Positions 4,584 through 54,519 of a stretch of 64,000 nt of DNA are shown one piece after another. The stretch is from the NCBI RefSeq assembly GCF_019039035.1, contig NZ_JAHNZT010000032.1:1-64000 (forward strand), given 5' to 3'. The position numbers and the translations under genes are program-made. Source of the DNA: Citreicoccus inhibens. GTDB lineage: Bacteria; Myxococcota; Myxococcia; Myxococcales; Myxococcaceae. Numbering within the stretch: position 1 is the first letter of the stretch; each line of letters opens with the position of its first letter. The notes below the pieces were generated by a model. That model worked only from the letters and a program-made list of their open reading frames with translations, was not told the DNA's origin and made no database searches.

Positions 4584-5144
4584 GTGCGCGACAACTTCTT
4601 GGGCCCGGCCATCGCCTTTTTGGTGCTCGTCGCGAACGCGAGCTGCCTGGACTCCCCCCGCACGCCGCCGGCCGAGCTGCCCCCCGCCGCGGTGAGCGCC
4701 GCGCCCTGCGTCTACTTCAAGCAGTTGACCCCATTCCTCCCCGAGTCACTGGAGGGCTTCGCCACGGGCCGCCTGTCCGGCTCCACCGGCAAATACGGCG
4801 AGGTGTCCGTGTCCGAGGCGGAGCGGACCTACACGCGAGGTGAGGGCCGCGAAGTGAAGGTGCGCATCGTGGACACCACCATGGGCGAGAAGATTGCCCA
4901 GGCCATCCGCGACGCGGCGGAGAAGGCGAAGGACCGCCCGACCAGCGACCCCACGGCCCCCATTCATTGGGAGGAGGCGGTGGGCTTCGTGCGCTATGAC
5001 GCGGACGAGGCGTTGGCGGAGGCGAACCTGGTGGTGGGCGACCGCTATGTGGTGGCGGTCACCAGTCGGGGGTTCCCGAGCACCGTGGAGGTGCGGCGGG
5101 TGGCACGAGGAATCGACCTGGCCGGGCTCGCCCGGCTGCAATGA
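4584..5144 (+). CDS. Putative lipoprotein of unknown function
   Basis: A 186-aa protein with a GTG start (VRDNFLGPAIAFLVLVANASC): a short hydrophobic segment ending in a lipobox-like NASC, which suggests export and lipidation at Cys. The rest is soluble and mixed alpha/beta (TYTRGEGREVKVRIVD, AVGFVRYDADEALAEANLVV), with a stretch resembling small secreted myxobacterial proteins, but I do not recognise the family. It is divergent from the helicase gene 35 bases away and overlaps or abuts the CxxC-repeat gene downstream, so the two are probably co-transcribed. The exact start is uncertain. Confidence 0.65.
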   Translation: MRDNFLGPAIAFLVLVANASCLDSPRTPPAELPPAAVSAAPCVYFKQLTPFLPESLEGFATGRLSGSTGKYGEVSVSEAERTYTRGEGREVKVRIVDTTMGEKIAQAIRDAAEKAKDRPTSDPTAPIHWEEAVGFVRYDADEALAEANLVVGDRYVVAVTSRGFPSTVEVRRVARGIDLAGLARLQ

Positions 5145-5161
5145 GAGCGCAAGGAGCATCC

Positions 5162-5665
5162 GTGGCGGTGAAGGACAGAGGCACTCGGCCCATGACGACC
5201 CCGGACCTGCTGGCCGAGGAGGCGGCGACGCGCGAGGGCGTGGCGGCGCTCAACAAGCGCGAGTTCCTGGACCAGTTCCAGAAGCTGTCCAAGCAGTACG
5301 CCCAGGACCCGGGCAACCCGGGCTCCTACGCCTGTGAAGGGTGTCAGCGCTGCGCCAACTGCATGTTCTGCAAGGACTGCGACAGCTGCCACCAGTGCAC
5401 GCACTGCACGCGCTGCGAGCTGTGCAACAACTGCTCGCACTGCGTGGACTGCAAGAGCTGCCACGCGAGCGCCTACTGCCAGCAGAGCGAGAACTGCACG
5501 CACAGCGCCTACCTGGTGCTGTGCCGCAACATGCAGGACAGCAACTACTGCTTCGGCTGCGTGGGGCTGTCCAAGAAGGACTTCCACATCCTCAACGTCC
5601 CCTTCCCCCGTACCGAGTACTTCAAGGTCGTGGCCCGGCTGCGCAAGGAGATGGGGATGCCGTGA
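5162..5665 (+). CDS. CxxC-repeat cysteine-rich protein
   Basis: A 167-aa protein. The GTG at 5162 is preferred because AAGGAG lies 5 bases upstream; an ATG at 5141 overlapping the previous stop (ATGA) lacks a ribosome binding site. From residue 58 to 100, fifteen cysteines occur at every third position without a break (C-x-x-C-x-x-C...), and five more follow, making 20 in total. The end, NYCFGCVGLSKKDFHILNV then TEYFK, resembles a repeat family sometimes mislabelled CaiB/BaiF in myxobacteria. No signal peptide is seen, so it is probably cytoplasmic. Regular Cys spacing suggests metal binding or a stacked solenoid; the function is unknown. Confidence 0.85.
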   Translation: MAVKDRGTRPMTTPDLLAEEAATREGVAALNKREFLDQFQKLSKQYAQDPGNPGSYACEGCQRCANCMFCKDCDSCHQCTHCTRCELCNNCSHCVDCKSCHASAYCQQSENCTHSAYLVLCRNMQDSNYCFGCVGLSKKDFHILNVPFPRTEYFKVVARLRKEMGMP

Positions 5666-5684
5666 GGCCCGCCGCGCGCCGCGG

Positions 5685-6863
5685 CTACAGGGCGCGCACG
5701 TAGAGGGCCTTGAGGTACTCGGTGTCCGGCAGCCCCGCGAGCACGGGGTGGTCCAACCCCGCGCCCCGGCGCTCCAGAATCTGCACCGGCCGCTTCGCAT
5801 CCGAGGCGGCCGACAGCACCATCTCCTCGAAGCCCGCGCGGTCGAGCTTGCCCGAGCACGAGCACGTGACGAGCAGCCCGTCTGGCCGCAGGCACCGGAG
5901 CGCGCGCAGGTTCAGCTCGTGGTAGGCGCGCAGCGCGGTGGCCAGCCCCTCGCGTCGCTTCGCCAGTCCGGGCGGATCCAACACGATGGTGTCGAAGCGG
6001 CGGCCCTCCTGGTCGAAGCGGCGCAGCACGTCGAACGCGTTCGCGTTCTCCACCTTCACGTTGGCGCGGCCGTTGGCCTCGGCGTTGGCCTGCGCGCGCG
6101 CGGCGGCCTTGGCGTCCTGCTCCACCGCGATGACCGAGCTGCAGTGGCGCGACAGCGCGAGCGCGAACCCGCCGTGGTAGCTGAAGCAGTCCAGGCCCTC
6201 TCCACGCGCCAGTTCGCCAGCGCGCAGGTGGTTGTCCACCTGGTCCAAGAAGGCGCCCGTCTTCATGTCGCCCAGCAGGTCCACCGAGAAGCGGTGCGGC
6301 CCCTCGTGGTACGTGAAGCGCGCGTCGCCGGTGCCGTGGAGCAGCCGGACTTCGCGGGGCAGGCTCTCGAAGTCCCGGCCCGAGGCGTCATCGCGGCACA
6401 CCACGTGGCTCACGCCCGTCAGCTCCACCAGCATCCGCGCCAGCTTCTCCTTGCGCGCATCCATCCCCTCGGAGAGCGTCTGAAGCGTGAGGCCATCGCC
6501 GTACCGGTCCACGAAGAGGCCCGGCAGCACATCCGCCTCGCCGTGCACCAGGCGCAGGCCGTCTCGCCCTGGCATCACCGCGCGGCGCGCGAGCGCGGCC
6601 TCCAAGCGACGCCGGAAGAAGGCATCATCCACCGCCTCCTCGGCGGGGCTCTTGCGGGTCAGCAGCCTCAGCGCCAGCGGGGAGCGCCGCGCGTAGAGGG
6701 CCTGACCGATGGGATTGCCCTGGGGGTCCACCACGGCCACCACCGCGCCGGCGGAGTCCACCGCGGGCGGCTCGGTCAGCTCCGTGCGGTAGAGCCACGG
6801 GTTGCCACGACGCAGGGACTTGGCGCCCTTGAGACTGACTCGGGCGGTGGGAAGGGATGGCAT
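5685..6863 (-). CDS. Class I rRNA large subunit methyltransferase, RlmI-like
   Basis: SAM-dependent methyltransferase of 392 aa with an N-terminal PUA-like domain (RVSLKGAKSLRRGNPWLYRT) and a C-terminal Rossmann domain. FDTIVLDPPGLAKR near residue 294 is the catalytic DPP motif of the RlmI/YccW family, which methylates C1962 of 23S rRNA to m5C; LLVTCSCSG follows. ATG 6863 was chosen; a GTG 12 bases upstream overlaps the previous stop. It sits 8 bases behind the zincin lipoprotein gene, so the two are likely co-transcribed. The family is solid; the exact target base is inferred. Confidence 0.88.
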   Translation of the reverse strand: MPSLPTARVSLKGAKSLRRGNPWLYRTELTEPPAVDSAGAVVAVVDPQGNPIGQALYARRSPLALRLLTRKSPAEEAVDDAFFRRRLEAALARRAVMPGRDGLRLVHGEADVLPGLFVDRYGDGLTLQTLSEGMDARKEKLARMLVELTGVSHVVCRDDASGRDFESLPREVRLLHGTGDARFTYHEGPHRFSVDLLGDMKTGAFLDQVDNHLRAGELARGEGLDCFSYHGGFALALSRHCSSVIAVEQDAKAAARAQANAEANGRANVKVENANAFDVLRRFDQEGRRFDTIVLDPPGLAKRREGLATALRAYHELNLRALRCLRPDGLLVTCSCSGKLDRAGFEEMVLSAASDAKRPVQILERRGAGLDHPVLAGLPDTEYLKALYVRAL

Positions 6864-6871
6864 GTGCGTGT

Positions 6872-8107
6872 TCACTCCAGGCCGCGCGCGGCCAGTTCCT
6901 CGTCGTCCTCGCCGCGCAGATGCCCCACCTCGTGCAGCAAAGTCACGCGAATCTGCTCGCGCAGCTCGTCTGACGTGCGCACCGCCCGCGCCAGATTGCG
7001 GCGGTACAGCACCACCGAGCGGCACGGGGTCTCCTTGCCGTCGCAGGGTTCGCTGAGGGAGGGGCCTCGGAAGAGGCCAAGAATCGTGGGGGACAGGGGC
7101 GGCTGGTTCGCCAGCAGGTCCGCGTCCGAGGGCAGCTCCTCGGTGTCTACCGGCACGCCCTTCAGGTCGCGCCGCATGTCGCTCGACAGGCCCGCCACGG
7201 CCTGCGCCACCGCCGCGCGGAAGTCCTCCTGCGAGGGCAACGGCGGCTCGGGGAAGTCCTCGGGGGACAGCTCGCGGGCCTTGTCGAAGTGTCCCTGCGC
7301 GAGCTTCCACTTGCCCTCGCGCTCCAGCAGCAGGCCCAGATGCTGGTGCACGTGCGCGGCGCGCTCCGGGTCGTCGAGCAGCGCCCCGAAGGCCTTGCGC
7401 GCCTCGGCGAAGCGGCACAGCTCGAAGAGGGCCAGGGCGCGCTCGTACTGCGCTTCGTGGTTGCCGGGCTCGCGGGCCAGCACGATGGCCGCGCGCGCGA
7501 GCGCCTCGTCCGCCTGCCCCAGGTCGTTGAAGGCCATGGCGGCCACCAGGGCCAGCTCGGGGATCAGCTCCGGCGGGGTGGAGGGCTGCGACAGGCCTCG
7601 CTCCGCGTAGAGGACGCCCAGTTCATCCCGCTCGCGGGTGGACTCCATCTGCACCGCATACAAGCGCGCCGCGCCCAGGAGCGACTCCGCGTCTCCTGGG
7701 TCGATCGCCAGCGCGCGGGCGAAGGCGAGCTGGGCCTCGGACTCGCGCCCCAATGCCGCCAGCGCCACGCCGCGCTCCGCGTGGGCCGCGGCGAGGTCCG
7801 GGTCCAACGCGGCGGCCTGCGCCGCGCAAGACAGGGCCTCCTCGTACTGGCCTCCGTCGTAGTAGTTCCGCGCCGCGTTCAAGGGCGAGCCACCGCGCGC
7901 ATCGCAGACGGCCAGCGGGTGCACCTCCGCCACCGAGGCGTCCGGCGCGGAGCCCACCGCCTGCGCCGCGCTGCCCGCGTCGCGCACCGAGGACGCGGCG
8001 GGCCGCACCTCACCCGCGCCAGCGTCGGGCACGGCGGAGGCGGCCGGCTCGGTGCGCTTACAGGAGGCGAGGAGAAGGAAGAGGGCAAGCAGCCCGCGCC
8101 GCGACAT
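6872..8107 (-). CDS. TPR lipoprotein with C-terminal zincin metallopeptidase-like domain
   Basis: A 411-aa product starting [16 protein letters not shown], a lipoprotein signal with lipobox LASC. After an Ala/Ser-rich linker come TPR units ([40 protein letters not shown]). The end, [12 protein letters not shown] then [18 protein letters not shown] near residues 375-400, carries an HEVGH zinc-peptidase motif and matches the small Zincin_1 family (possible zinc metallopeptidases). Fusing that domain to a TPR lipoprotein points to an envelope role. Activity is not established. Confidence 0.82.
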
Positions 8108-53434: not shown

Positions 53435-53487
53435 GGCGGCCCCACGAACGCCGTCGGTTCGCGGGGCACCGCCGGCGCAGTGGGTGT

Positions 53488-53574
53488 GGAGGCGTGGCCG
53501 AGCGGCTGAAGGCAGCGGTCTTGAAAACCGCAGAGGGTGCAAGCTCTCCGTAGGTTCGAATCCTACCGCCTCCG
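53488..53574 (+). tRNA. tRNA-Ser (anticodon TGA)
   Basis: An 87-nt class II tRNA. Acceptor GGAGGCG pairs with CGCCTCC; anticodon loop CTTGAAA gives TGA at 53522-53524, reading UCA. A long variable arm and GGTTCGAATCC T-arm are present. CCA is not encoded. Confidence 0.97.
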
Positions 53575-53617
53575 AGATTTTGTTCTTGAGTTTGGTGGTT
53601 CTTTGACAGAGAAAGAT

Positions 53618-53707
53618 GGAGAGATGGCCGAGAGGCTGAAGGCACAGGTTTGCTAAACCTGCATACTCGAAAGGGTATCGAGGGTTCGAATCCCTCTCTC
53701 TCCGCCA
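53618..53707 (+). tRNA. tRNA-Ser (anticodon GCT)
   Basis: A class II tRNA. Acceptor GGAGAGA pairs with TCTCTCC; loop TTGCTAA gives GCT at 53652-53654, reading AGC and AGU. Unlike its neighbours it encodes the CCA end (53705-53707). Confidence 0.97.
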
Positions 53708-53733
53708 CTTGTCGTTGTAGCGCCAGAAAGATT

Positions 53734-53807
53734 GCTCCCTTAGCTCAGCTGGATAGAGCGTCGGACTACGAATCCGAAGGCCGGAGGTTCGAATCCTCCA
53801 GGGAGCG
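53734..53807 (+). tRNA. tRNA-Arg (anticodon ACG)
   Basis: A 74-nt class I tRNA. Acceptor GCTCCCT pairs with AGGGAGC; loop CTACGAA gives ACG at 53768-53770. A34 must be deaminated to inosine to read CGU/CGC/CGA; the enzyme gene tadA begins 24 bases downstream. Confidence 0.97.
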
Positions 53808-53830
53808 CTGTTTTCCTCGGCGCGTGTCTC

Positions 53831-54298
53831 ATGAGTGACGATGTGAAGTTCATGCAGCAGGCTCTTTTGCTCGCGCAAGAAGCCTCGTCCCTCGGAGAGG
53901 TCCCGGTTGGTGCGGTTGCGGTGCTCGATGGAAACATCGTGGGCACTGGCTTCAATCGCCGCGAAATGGACCGCAATCCTTTTGCACACGCGGAAATGTT
54001 GGCTCTCGAGGCTGCCGCCAAGGCTGTGAATGCCTGGCGGCTAACGGGCATTACGTTGTATGTGACTCTGGAGCCGTGTGCCATGTGCGCCGGCGCGTTG
54101 GTTCAATCCCGAGTCACCCGGCTTGTTTTTGGAACGCAGGACCCCAAAGCCGGCGCTGTAGGTTCGCTGTACAATCTGGCCGAGGAGCCCCGACACAATC
54201 ACCGGCTCCTCGTGACAAGCGGGATCCTGGCGGACGAGAGCCGCCTGCTTCTCAAGGCGTTCTTCGAGCGCTTGCGCGCGAAGCGACGTGACAATTGA
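53831..54298 (+). CDS. tadA: tRNA adenosine(34) deaminase
   Basis: Zinc deaminase of 155 aa that makes inosine at position 34 of tRNA-Arg(ACG). HAEMLALEAA (zinc His and proton-shuttling Glu) and TLEPCAMCAGALV (two zinc cysteines) are intact, as is VPVGAVAVLDGNIVGTGFN. It lies between tRNA-Arg(ACG), its substrate, and tRNA-Ser(CGA). Codon use is slightly less GC-biased than in neighbours. Confidence 0.96.
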   Translation: MSDDVKFMQQALLLAQEASSLGEVPVGAVAVLDGNIVGTGFNRREMDRNPFAHAEMLALEAAAKAVNAWRLTGITLYVTLEPCAMCAGALVQSRVTRLVFGTQDPKAGAVGSLYNLAEEPRHNHRLLVTSGILADESRLLLKAFFERLRAKRRDN

Positions 54299-54303
54299 AT
54301 ATT

Positions 54304-54390
54304 GGAGAGCTGGCCGAGTGGTCGAAGGCACCTGACTCGAAATCAGGCGTACCGGCAACGGTACCGTAGGTTCGAATCCTACGCTCTCCG
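54304..54390 (+). tRNA. tRNA-Ser (anticodon CGA)
   Basis: An 87-nt class II tRNA. Acceptor GGAGAGC pairs with GCTCTCC; loop CTCGAAA gives CGA at 54338-54340, reading UCG, a favoured codon at this GC level. It begins 5 bases after tadA. Confidence 0.97.
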
Positions 54391-54403
54391 CTGCAGTTGT
54401 GTT

Positions 54404-54490
54404 GGAGAGGTGGCCGAGCGGTTGAAGGCGCACGCCTGGAACGCGTGTATATCTGAAAGGGTATCGTGGGTTCGAATCCCACCCTCTCCG
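54404..54490 (+). tRNA. tRNA-Ser (anticodon GGA)
   Basis: An 87-nt class II tRNA. Acceptor GGAGAGG pairs with CCTCTCC; loop CTGGAAC gives GGA at 54438-54440, reading UCC and UCU. It completes the serine set of the cluster. Confidence 0.97.
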
Positions 54491-54519
54491 TTTCTGTTGT
54501 TGTTGAATGAAAGCTTTGT

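Follow-up and report, generated by a model that had tools for sequence, protein, structure and literature searches.

A myxobacterial protein family with a predicted cysteine-core beta-solenoid and a conserved aromatic ladder

Very narrow beta-solenoids are best known from secreted, disulfide-bonded antifreeze proteins. The core of the Tenebrio molitor antifreeze fold is filled by side chains, and its core cysteine positions form disulfides in the beetle protein. This cysteine solenoid is a rare fold. Small beta-solenoids also occur among the pentapeptide-repeat proteins, with a unit of five residues. The bacterial ice-nucleation protein has repeats of 16 residues (PMC9418140), and its tyrosine ladder is a proposed dimer face (PMC10727499). 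A further cysteine-rich repeat is almost wholly eukaryotic (PMC7379824), and it looks unrelated to the family described below.

Here we analyse a cysteine-rich protein encoded in a 64,000-nucleotide stretch of DNA (the window) from a 9.05-Mb Citreicoccus inhibens genome of 123 contigs. The features of the locus are collected in Table 1.

Table 1. Positions in the window of the gene, its predicted parts and the gene upstream
Feature	Position	Strand	Details and basis
Gene of the cysteine-rich protein, predicted solenoid	5162..5665	+	167 aa, GTG at 5162, stop TGA 5663-5665; sequence, codon-position bias, homologues
AAGGAG, likely ribosome-binding site for GTG 5162	5151..5156	+	Read from the sequence
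Likely N-terminal cap, residues 13-48, with helices predicted at 13-28 and 32-48	5198..5305	+	AlphaFold2 model, alignment A2
Seven predicted 12-residue coils A-G, residues 57-140; inward positions 2, 5, 8, 11 mostly cysteine	5330..5581	+	Model, alignments, Tenebrio fold match
Aromatic ladder, first position of coils B-G plus cap	5366..5584	+	Lag-12 autocorrelation, counts in 79 unique sequences, L116
Ladder codon F69	5366-5368	+	
Ladder codon H81	5402-5404	+	
Ladder codon H93	5438-5440	+	
Ladder codon Y105	5474-5476	+	
Ladder codon Y117	5510-5512	+	
Ladder codon Y129	5546-5548	+	
Ladder codon F141	5582-5584	+	
Likely C-terminal cap, residues 129-167, made of the last coil (YCFGCVGLxKKD), FHILN and the helix at 150-163	5546..5662	+	A1/A2, model
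Upstream codirectional lipoprotein-like gene	4584..5144	+	186 aa; ends 17 bases before GTG 5162; lipobox read by eye

The product has 167 residues if the putative start is GTG 5162, and 20 of them are cysteines. The initial annotation described fifteen consecutive CxxC steps at residues 58-100. Fifteen cysteines do stand three residues apart there (58, 61, 64, 67, 70, 73, 76, 79, 82, 85, 88, 91, 94, 97, and 100), which makes 14 steps. The five additional cysteines it mentioned are residues 106, 112, 121, 130, and 133, and the CFGCVGL..FHILN stretch it placed after the array is present. The protein is near neutral in charge (18 D+E, 20 K+R), its N-terminus (AVKDRGTRPMTTPD after the start) has no signal peptide by eye, and it is apparently cytoplasmic. 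When residues 57-166 are compared, L005, the nearest relative, shows 0/0/6 nucleotide differences at codon positions 1/2/3, and the 74 loci above 70% identity, some of which are one record present twice, show a summed 1032/605/1459. Because the differences are biased by codon position in both comparisons, the gene is real. The cysteine array is not a product of chance, since 127 of 195 Myxococcota genomes contain a homologue. On the + strand, an open frame of 758 aa (5334-7610) overlaps this gene together with the methyltransferase gene that follows, the latter with Pfam matches; the long frame is probably a spurious frame of GC-rich DNA.

The positions of the cysteines were studied in the homologues. 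Counted over coils A-F of 33 non-redundant sequences, the core positions 2, 5, 8, and 11 amount to 792 cells, occupied by 579 Cys, 126 Ser, and 65 Leu, with 7 Val, 6 Ala, 3 Thr, 3 Met, 2 Ile, and 1 Gly in the rest. Not one of these cells holds a charged or large-polar residue. The divergent homologue L116, which lies outside this set, likewise has only Cys, Ser, and Leu at its 24 core places. With only small or oily residues as substitutes, the pattern is that of a packed core and not that of metal ligands, and a metal-ligand arrangement is thereby disfavoured as the best reading. Cysteine fills 69% of the 231 cells at position 2 and 75% of the 231 at position 8. The cysteines C67, C76, and C130 are kept in 36 of 36 sequences and C64, C112, and C133 in 35 of 36, counts for which the search pattern fixes residue 130 and limits 133 to Cys or Ser; L116 has a serine at 76.

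A disulfide ladder across the coils was considered and is not favoured. Neither the 2/8 nor the 5/11 cross-coil pairs covary positively (means of -0.13 and -0.17, from two testable pairs each, so that informative pairs are few), and the number of core cysteines is odd in 19 of the 33 sequences. Fixed disulfide pairs therefore look unlikely. The strongest covariation among core cysteines is found elsewhere (70/106, 0.90; 61/73, 0.88; 61/70, 0.88) and may reflect shared descent only.

The periodicity of the family lies in its aromatic residues as well as in its cysteines. In alignment A2 (30 sequences) the cysteine signal has a period of 3 residues, while the aromatic autocorrelation peaks at lags 12 (0.52) and 24 (0.51) and does not exceed 0.04 at any of the remaining lags between 2 and 25; FYHW was picked as the aromatic set after inspection of the alignment. 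At lag 5 the autocorrelation is negative for aromatic residues and for cysteine. When the non-cysteine residues of the window protein were shuffled, the observed periodicity was reached in none of 20,000 shuffles, the best of periods 4-14 being taken for each. The 12-residue period is thus visible in the sequences without any model. Judged from the sequences, the real unit has 12 residues and is not the pitch of three that had been taken as the defining feature of the protein: what is kept is a unit of 12 with an aromatic first position in coils B-G. As to conservation of the pitch, the longest run of cysteines three apart varies from 2 to 18 among the 33 homologues, and the core cysteines number from 10 to 21 of the 24 places.

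Divided into twelves, residues 57-140 form seven coils, of which coil A alone does not start with an aromatic residue. The ladder in the window protein consists of F69, H81, H93, Y105, Y117, and Y129 (coils B-G) and F141 in the cap. Among 79 unique sequences, position 69 is Phe in 79; 81 is His in 76 and Tyr in 3; 93 is His in 76, with Leu, Gln, and Arg once each; 105 is Tyr in 76 and His in 3; 117 and 129 are Tyr in 79; and 141 is Phe in 78 and Tyr in 1. For these counts, as for the sets of 33 and 36 sequences above, the loci were chosen by a pattern over residues 129-145, which fixes Y129 and limits 141 to Phe or Tyr; both Y129 and F141 are invariant in the pattern-free alignments A1 and A2. 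At position 1 of the coils, Phe, Tyr, His, or Trp occupies 85% of the 231 cells. The ladder of L116, a sequence of 36% identity aligned without gaps over 137 residues, reads F, H, W, Y, Y, H, F, with Trp at 93 and His at 129. No gap occurs within residues 57-141 in the 92 aligned sequences (91 unique plus L116), and the number of coils is therefore constant in them. Eleven of the 137 records, which comprise the window and 136 loci, fail the 129-145 pattern: L116, eight stretches from phages or plasmids, and L002 and L003, which are hits at the DNA level only. The non-redundant sets contain 91 unique sequences and 36 at 80%, 77 and 33, or 79 unique of 124 rows, and they differ in size because different lengths were compared.

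A beta-solenoid, closest to the antifreeze protein of the beetle Tenebrio, is well supported by structure prediction. AlphaFold2 run on A2 (30 sequences) gives a mean pLDDT of 77.7, with block means of 92-96 over residues 61-110. In the model, strands recur at intervals of 12 residues, with two helices at the N-terminal end and one at the C-terminal end. A second model, of the homologue L077, has the same arrangement. The pTM values are 0.54 for the window protein and 0.57 for L077, and the pLDDT falls below 50 at residues 140-148 and 109-116, respectively. The longest run of cysteines three apart in L077 is 2, so that, as far as predictions go, the fold is kept where the pitch is lost; the L077 model is not independent of the first because its alignment contains Cys-rich relatives. 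The initial suggestion of a stacked helix or a metal or Fe-S scaffold is consistent with a solenoid in outline, as the two models have it, while its metal or Fe-S part is not supported by the core substitutions.

In the structural comparison, the crystal structure of the Tenebrio protein (1ezg) is the best match for both models, with Z 11.1, rmsd 2.5, and 81 of 82 residues for the window protein and Z 11.0, rmsd 2.4, and 82 of 82 for L077; for repeats, according to a note of the aligner, a Z under about 13 may be just a common arrangement. After the Tenebrio crystal and NMR entries, the next fold follows at Z 6.3 and 6.4. The ends of the window alignment (57 to 2, 138 to 83) suggest that the coil-2/8 cysteines of the beetle protein fall on the same places, and those of L077 show a register not quite as in the window model. 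Foldseek finds no PDB entry at E <= 0.001, and 1ezg comes third (prob 0.84, E 0.35). Among viral models three pass the same threshold, their TM-scores being 0.20-0.35; one of them, named 'Caib/baif family protein', has an E of 6.3e-5 but TM-scores of 0.31 and 0.35. AlphaFold2 is reported to give over-confident beta-solenoids for perfect repeats, and methods to agree for families with diverged repeats (PMC11795689). The repeats of the present family are diverged.

The 127 Myxococcota genomes mentioned above, which include the source genome, were found with profile A1 at E <= 0.001. Each carries one strong copy, and in two of them a further, weak match was obtained (E 5e-6 and 2e-5). A single-sequence query matches 26 of 40 genomes, again including the source. 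The match in genome G188 spans a TAG, which precedes an open frame of 140 residues. A scan of genome contigs gave 49 loci, of which 48 are titled Myxococcota or Deltaproteobacteria and one Comamonas; as the scan used exact peptides of one sequence, it reaches close relatives only. The Comamonas record (L046, titled Comamonas sp. KCTC 72670) contains a Myxococcus-like locus of 79% identity to the query and has probably been mislabelled or contaminated. Among named relatives, those closest to the gene are from Pyxidicoccus, Corallococcus, and Myxococcus, and a Myxococcus xanthus strain carries a homologue (L045).

The window protein matches no Pfam or NCBIfam family at E up to 1, metallothionein and zinc-finger models included. 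At the same cutoff, the single sequence finds no PDB chain. In the PDB, profile A2 weakly matches three entries, namely eS31 (E 0.085), 1ezg (E 0.093), and the CXXC region of TET1 (E 0.36). In searches of the literature for the motif, for the fold in bacteria, and for the name of the viral family, no description of the family was found among the matches listed. A similar motif, CFGCVGLRNK, probably occurs in proteins of bacteria of the candidate phyla radiation, and the range of the family may extend beyond Myxococcota. The myxobacterial family thus lacks a curated model, and its predicted fold is one that is known but rare.

Arrays of CxxC steps are also encoded by Campylobacter phages, a Vibrio phage, a Flavobacterium phage, a Helicobacter prophage, and a Campylobacter fetus plasmid. 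We examined 7 of the 18 matching phage records and 1 of the 2 plasmid records, several of the matches being weak (E 1e-2 to 0.5). Ten such arrays contain 18 to 76 cysteines each, with cysteine at 362 of 396 inner places, and show no comparable ladder, the aromatic lag-12 value in these single sequences being at most 0.26. They may have a common origin with the myxobacterial family or just a repeat type in common with it. One phage relative is annotated as an insect antifreeze protein. The window protein matches PHROG 15341 (E 1.5e-7, profile positions 49-132 of 276), a match which may come from the array alone. Gene product gp032 of Campylobacter phage CP220 matches the same profile over positions 1-135 (E 2.8e-53), and the Vibrio phage protein only over 38-114. 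Scans of viral contigs by profile A1 and by two DNA patterns yielded no relative; the one DNA-pattern match lies outside any open frame of more than 90 residues with FGCxG.

Some of these viral and plasmid records deserve separate mention. In the Flavobacterium phage FL-1 (KY421186.2), a long open frame (L110:2983-3684) encodes the CxxC array, and the annotated APZ82901.1 (L110:3095-3439), with its APVAPI repeat, is another frame of the same stretch; the annotated frame is probably wrong. The Campylobacter fetus plasmid pCfviMP1 has two open frames with long CxxC arrays (L111:2941-3345 and L111:5449-6153), the first without a gene in the plasmid table used, which is itself incomplete. An MKTQIF N-terminal block precedes the arrays in the Vibrio phage (L109), the Flavobacterium phage (L110), and a viral contig (L139), and a stretch with a WH.C.TT motif follows in L110 and L139.

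The genomic surroundings of the gene vary by lineage in the 35 loci compared by crude gene calls and clustering, in 25 of which the caller put the cysteine gene in its cluster. Ten neighbours or partners were compared with Pfam and ten with NCBIfam. A UvrD-like helicase cluster is present in 11 loci, with L112 and L127 coming from families other than that of the window; one neighbour we take to be UvrD-like from its sequence. A double ABC ATPase or an M23 peptidase is among the neighbours in L072, L113, L128, and L129. Elsewhere there are TPR genes and weakly AAA-like genes, and in a few loci TldD-like genes and a D-Tyr-tRNA deacylase. L074 and L118 share their neighbours and are on contigs of equal length (486,517), and their context was counted once. 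The upstream lipoprotein-like gene, which has no NCBIfam match, had been described as coupled to the cysteine-rich protein. Of 69 homologous loci, some shortened by contig ends, 27 have a relative of it, one of these being weak; the coupling is limited to part of the family, and the gene is thus not a general partner. As the neighbours differ between lineages, no function was drawn from an operon. In a distant part of the window (53487-54491), five tRNA genes are clustered, four for Ser (tga, gct, cga, gga) and one for Arg (acg).

Computation establishes the 12-residue unit, the buried character of the cysteine places, the fold match of two models, the constant coil number in the members aligned, and the conserved ladder; a function as scaffold is suggested by analogy. 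The protein would be a flat beta-solenoid of seven 12-residue coils set between a helical N-terminal cap and a C-terminal cap made of FHILN and a helix. Its cysteines would be mainly free thiols filling a very narrow core, neither metal ligands nor members of obligatory disulfides, and the capped ends would block end-to-end stacking. By analogy with the beetle fold, the ladder F-H-H-Y-Y-Y-F would point outward. With less certainty, we suggest a rigid scaffold on which the ladder and the caps dock a partner or a second copy, as is proposed for the tyrosine ladder of ice-nucleation proteins. On balance, we find it somewhat probable that the capped cysteine-core solenoid is a binding scaffold with the aromatic ladder as its likely contact face.

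The strongest rival reading covers the ladder by the N-terminal helices of the protein itself, so that the ladder would be structural only and the function would reside in the caps (KKDFHILN, RxEYF, and the C-terminal helix). The longest invariant run of the protein agrees with this, being the last coil and the C-terminal cap, where residues 129-145 are mostly invariant or nearly so in A1 and A2. So do F35 and L42 of the N-terminal helix region, both invariant in A2, and the pTM of the model of the window protein leaves the packing of the parts open. However, the rungs H81/H93 and Y105/Y117/Y129 are kept more strictly than packing seems to need, a strictness limited by the Trp at 93 and the His at 129 of L116. 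We regard a covered ladder as rather unlikely.

A lower probability falls to readings that put the cysteines themselves to work. If the cysteine-lined core bound metal ions or clusters, as a metal or Fe-S scaffold, one could account for the twenty cysteines, six of them kept in all or all but one of the 36 sequences, for two histidines one coil apart (H81 and H93), and for the weak profile matches to eS31 and the CXXC region of TET1, both of which we take to be zinc-binding. But 213 of the 792 core cells are not cysteine, mostly Ser or Leu instead, L116 replaces position 76 by Ser, the run can be as short as 2, the family databases give no model, and the matched beetle fold has a core filled by side chains; a metal scaffold is improbable. 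The many CxxC pairs, and the disulfides at equivalent positions of the beetle protein, would also suit a thiol buffer or redox switch in which CxxC steps alternate between thiol and disulfide. The cross-coil pairs without positive covariation and the odd core numbers do not fit this, nor is there a redox partner among the neighbouring genes compared with families, and we give such a switch little credence. A beetle-type ice-binding or antifreeze protein, finally, could be proposed from the fold match of both models to 1ezg and from the annotation of the phage relative. Yet the TxT face is absent, with aromatic residues at position 1 as described and Thr at position 3 in just 31 of 231 cells, and no secretion signal is seen by eye. 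On the models and sequences, an antifreeze protein appears highly improbable.

Extending the binding-scaffold reading to the whole family, we tentatively propose, with a good deal of doubt, an ancient myxobacterial family in which a fixed seven-coil cytoplasmic scaffold on the beetle-antifreeze fold has a reduced-thiol core instead of disulfides, the His/Tyr ladder is a new recognition face, and the phage CxxC arrays are relatives of variable length. The interest of the family lies in its breadth in Myxococcota and in this possible free-thiol version of a disulfide fold. If true, a very narrow beta-solenoid works in bacterial cells with a free-thiol core and offers a clean test of how such a fold holds without disulfides. 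An uncharacterised gene of model myxobacteria, a Myxococcus xanthus strain included, would also gain a concrete, testable surface.

A comparison of the window protein with the Tenebrio antifreeze protein (1ezg, 1l1i) shows 12-residue coils in common, and coils of this length with cysteine at positions 2 and 8 are both predicted and seen in the sequence. The Tenebrio repeat, TCTxSxxCxxAx as taken from the profile alignment, and coil E of the window protein, YCQQSENCTHSA, have the same core pattern of Cys, Ser, Cys, and a small residue. The beetle protein carries a TxT ice face where the window protein has the aromatic ladder. The window protein differs further in having up to four core cysteines per coil, helices predicted before and after the coils, and an apparently cytoplasmic location. 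The sequence match between the two is weak, at the profile E value given above and with none for the single sequence.

The phage proteins of PHROG 15341, represented by CP220 gp032, have the cysteines three apart in common with the window protein, and gp032 has CFGCYGI near its end; the N-termini of the phage and plasmid proteins differ from that of the window protein, and a comparable ladder is missing there. Pentapeptide-repeat proteins (MfpA, Qnr, AlbG) are small beta-solenoids too and give weak structural matches (Z 4.2-4.8), whereas the window protein has a 12-residue unit, no Pfam match, and a near-neutral composition. With a unit of 12 and the negative lag-5 autocorrelation, membership in the pentapeptide-repeat family was rejected. 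The bacterial ice-nucleation protein has a stacked tyrosine ladder on a beta-solenoid, similar to the ladder predicted in the window protein, and differs from it in being ice-active and in its 16-residue repeats, against 12 in the window protein.
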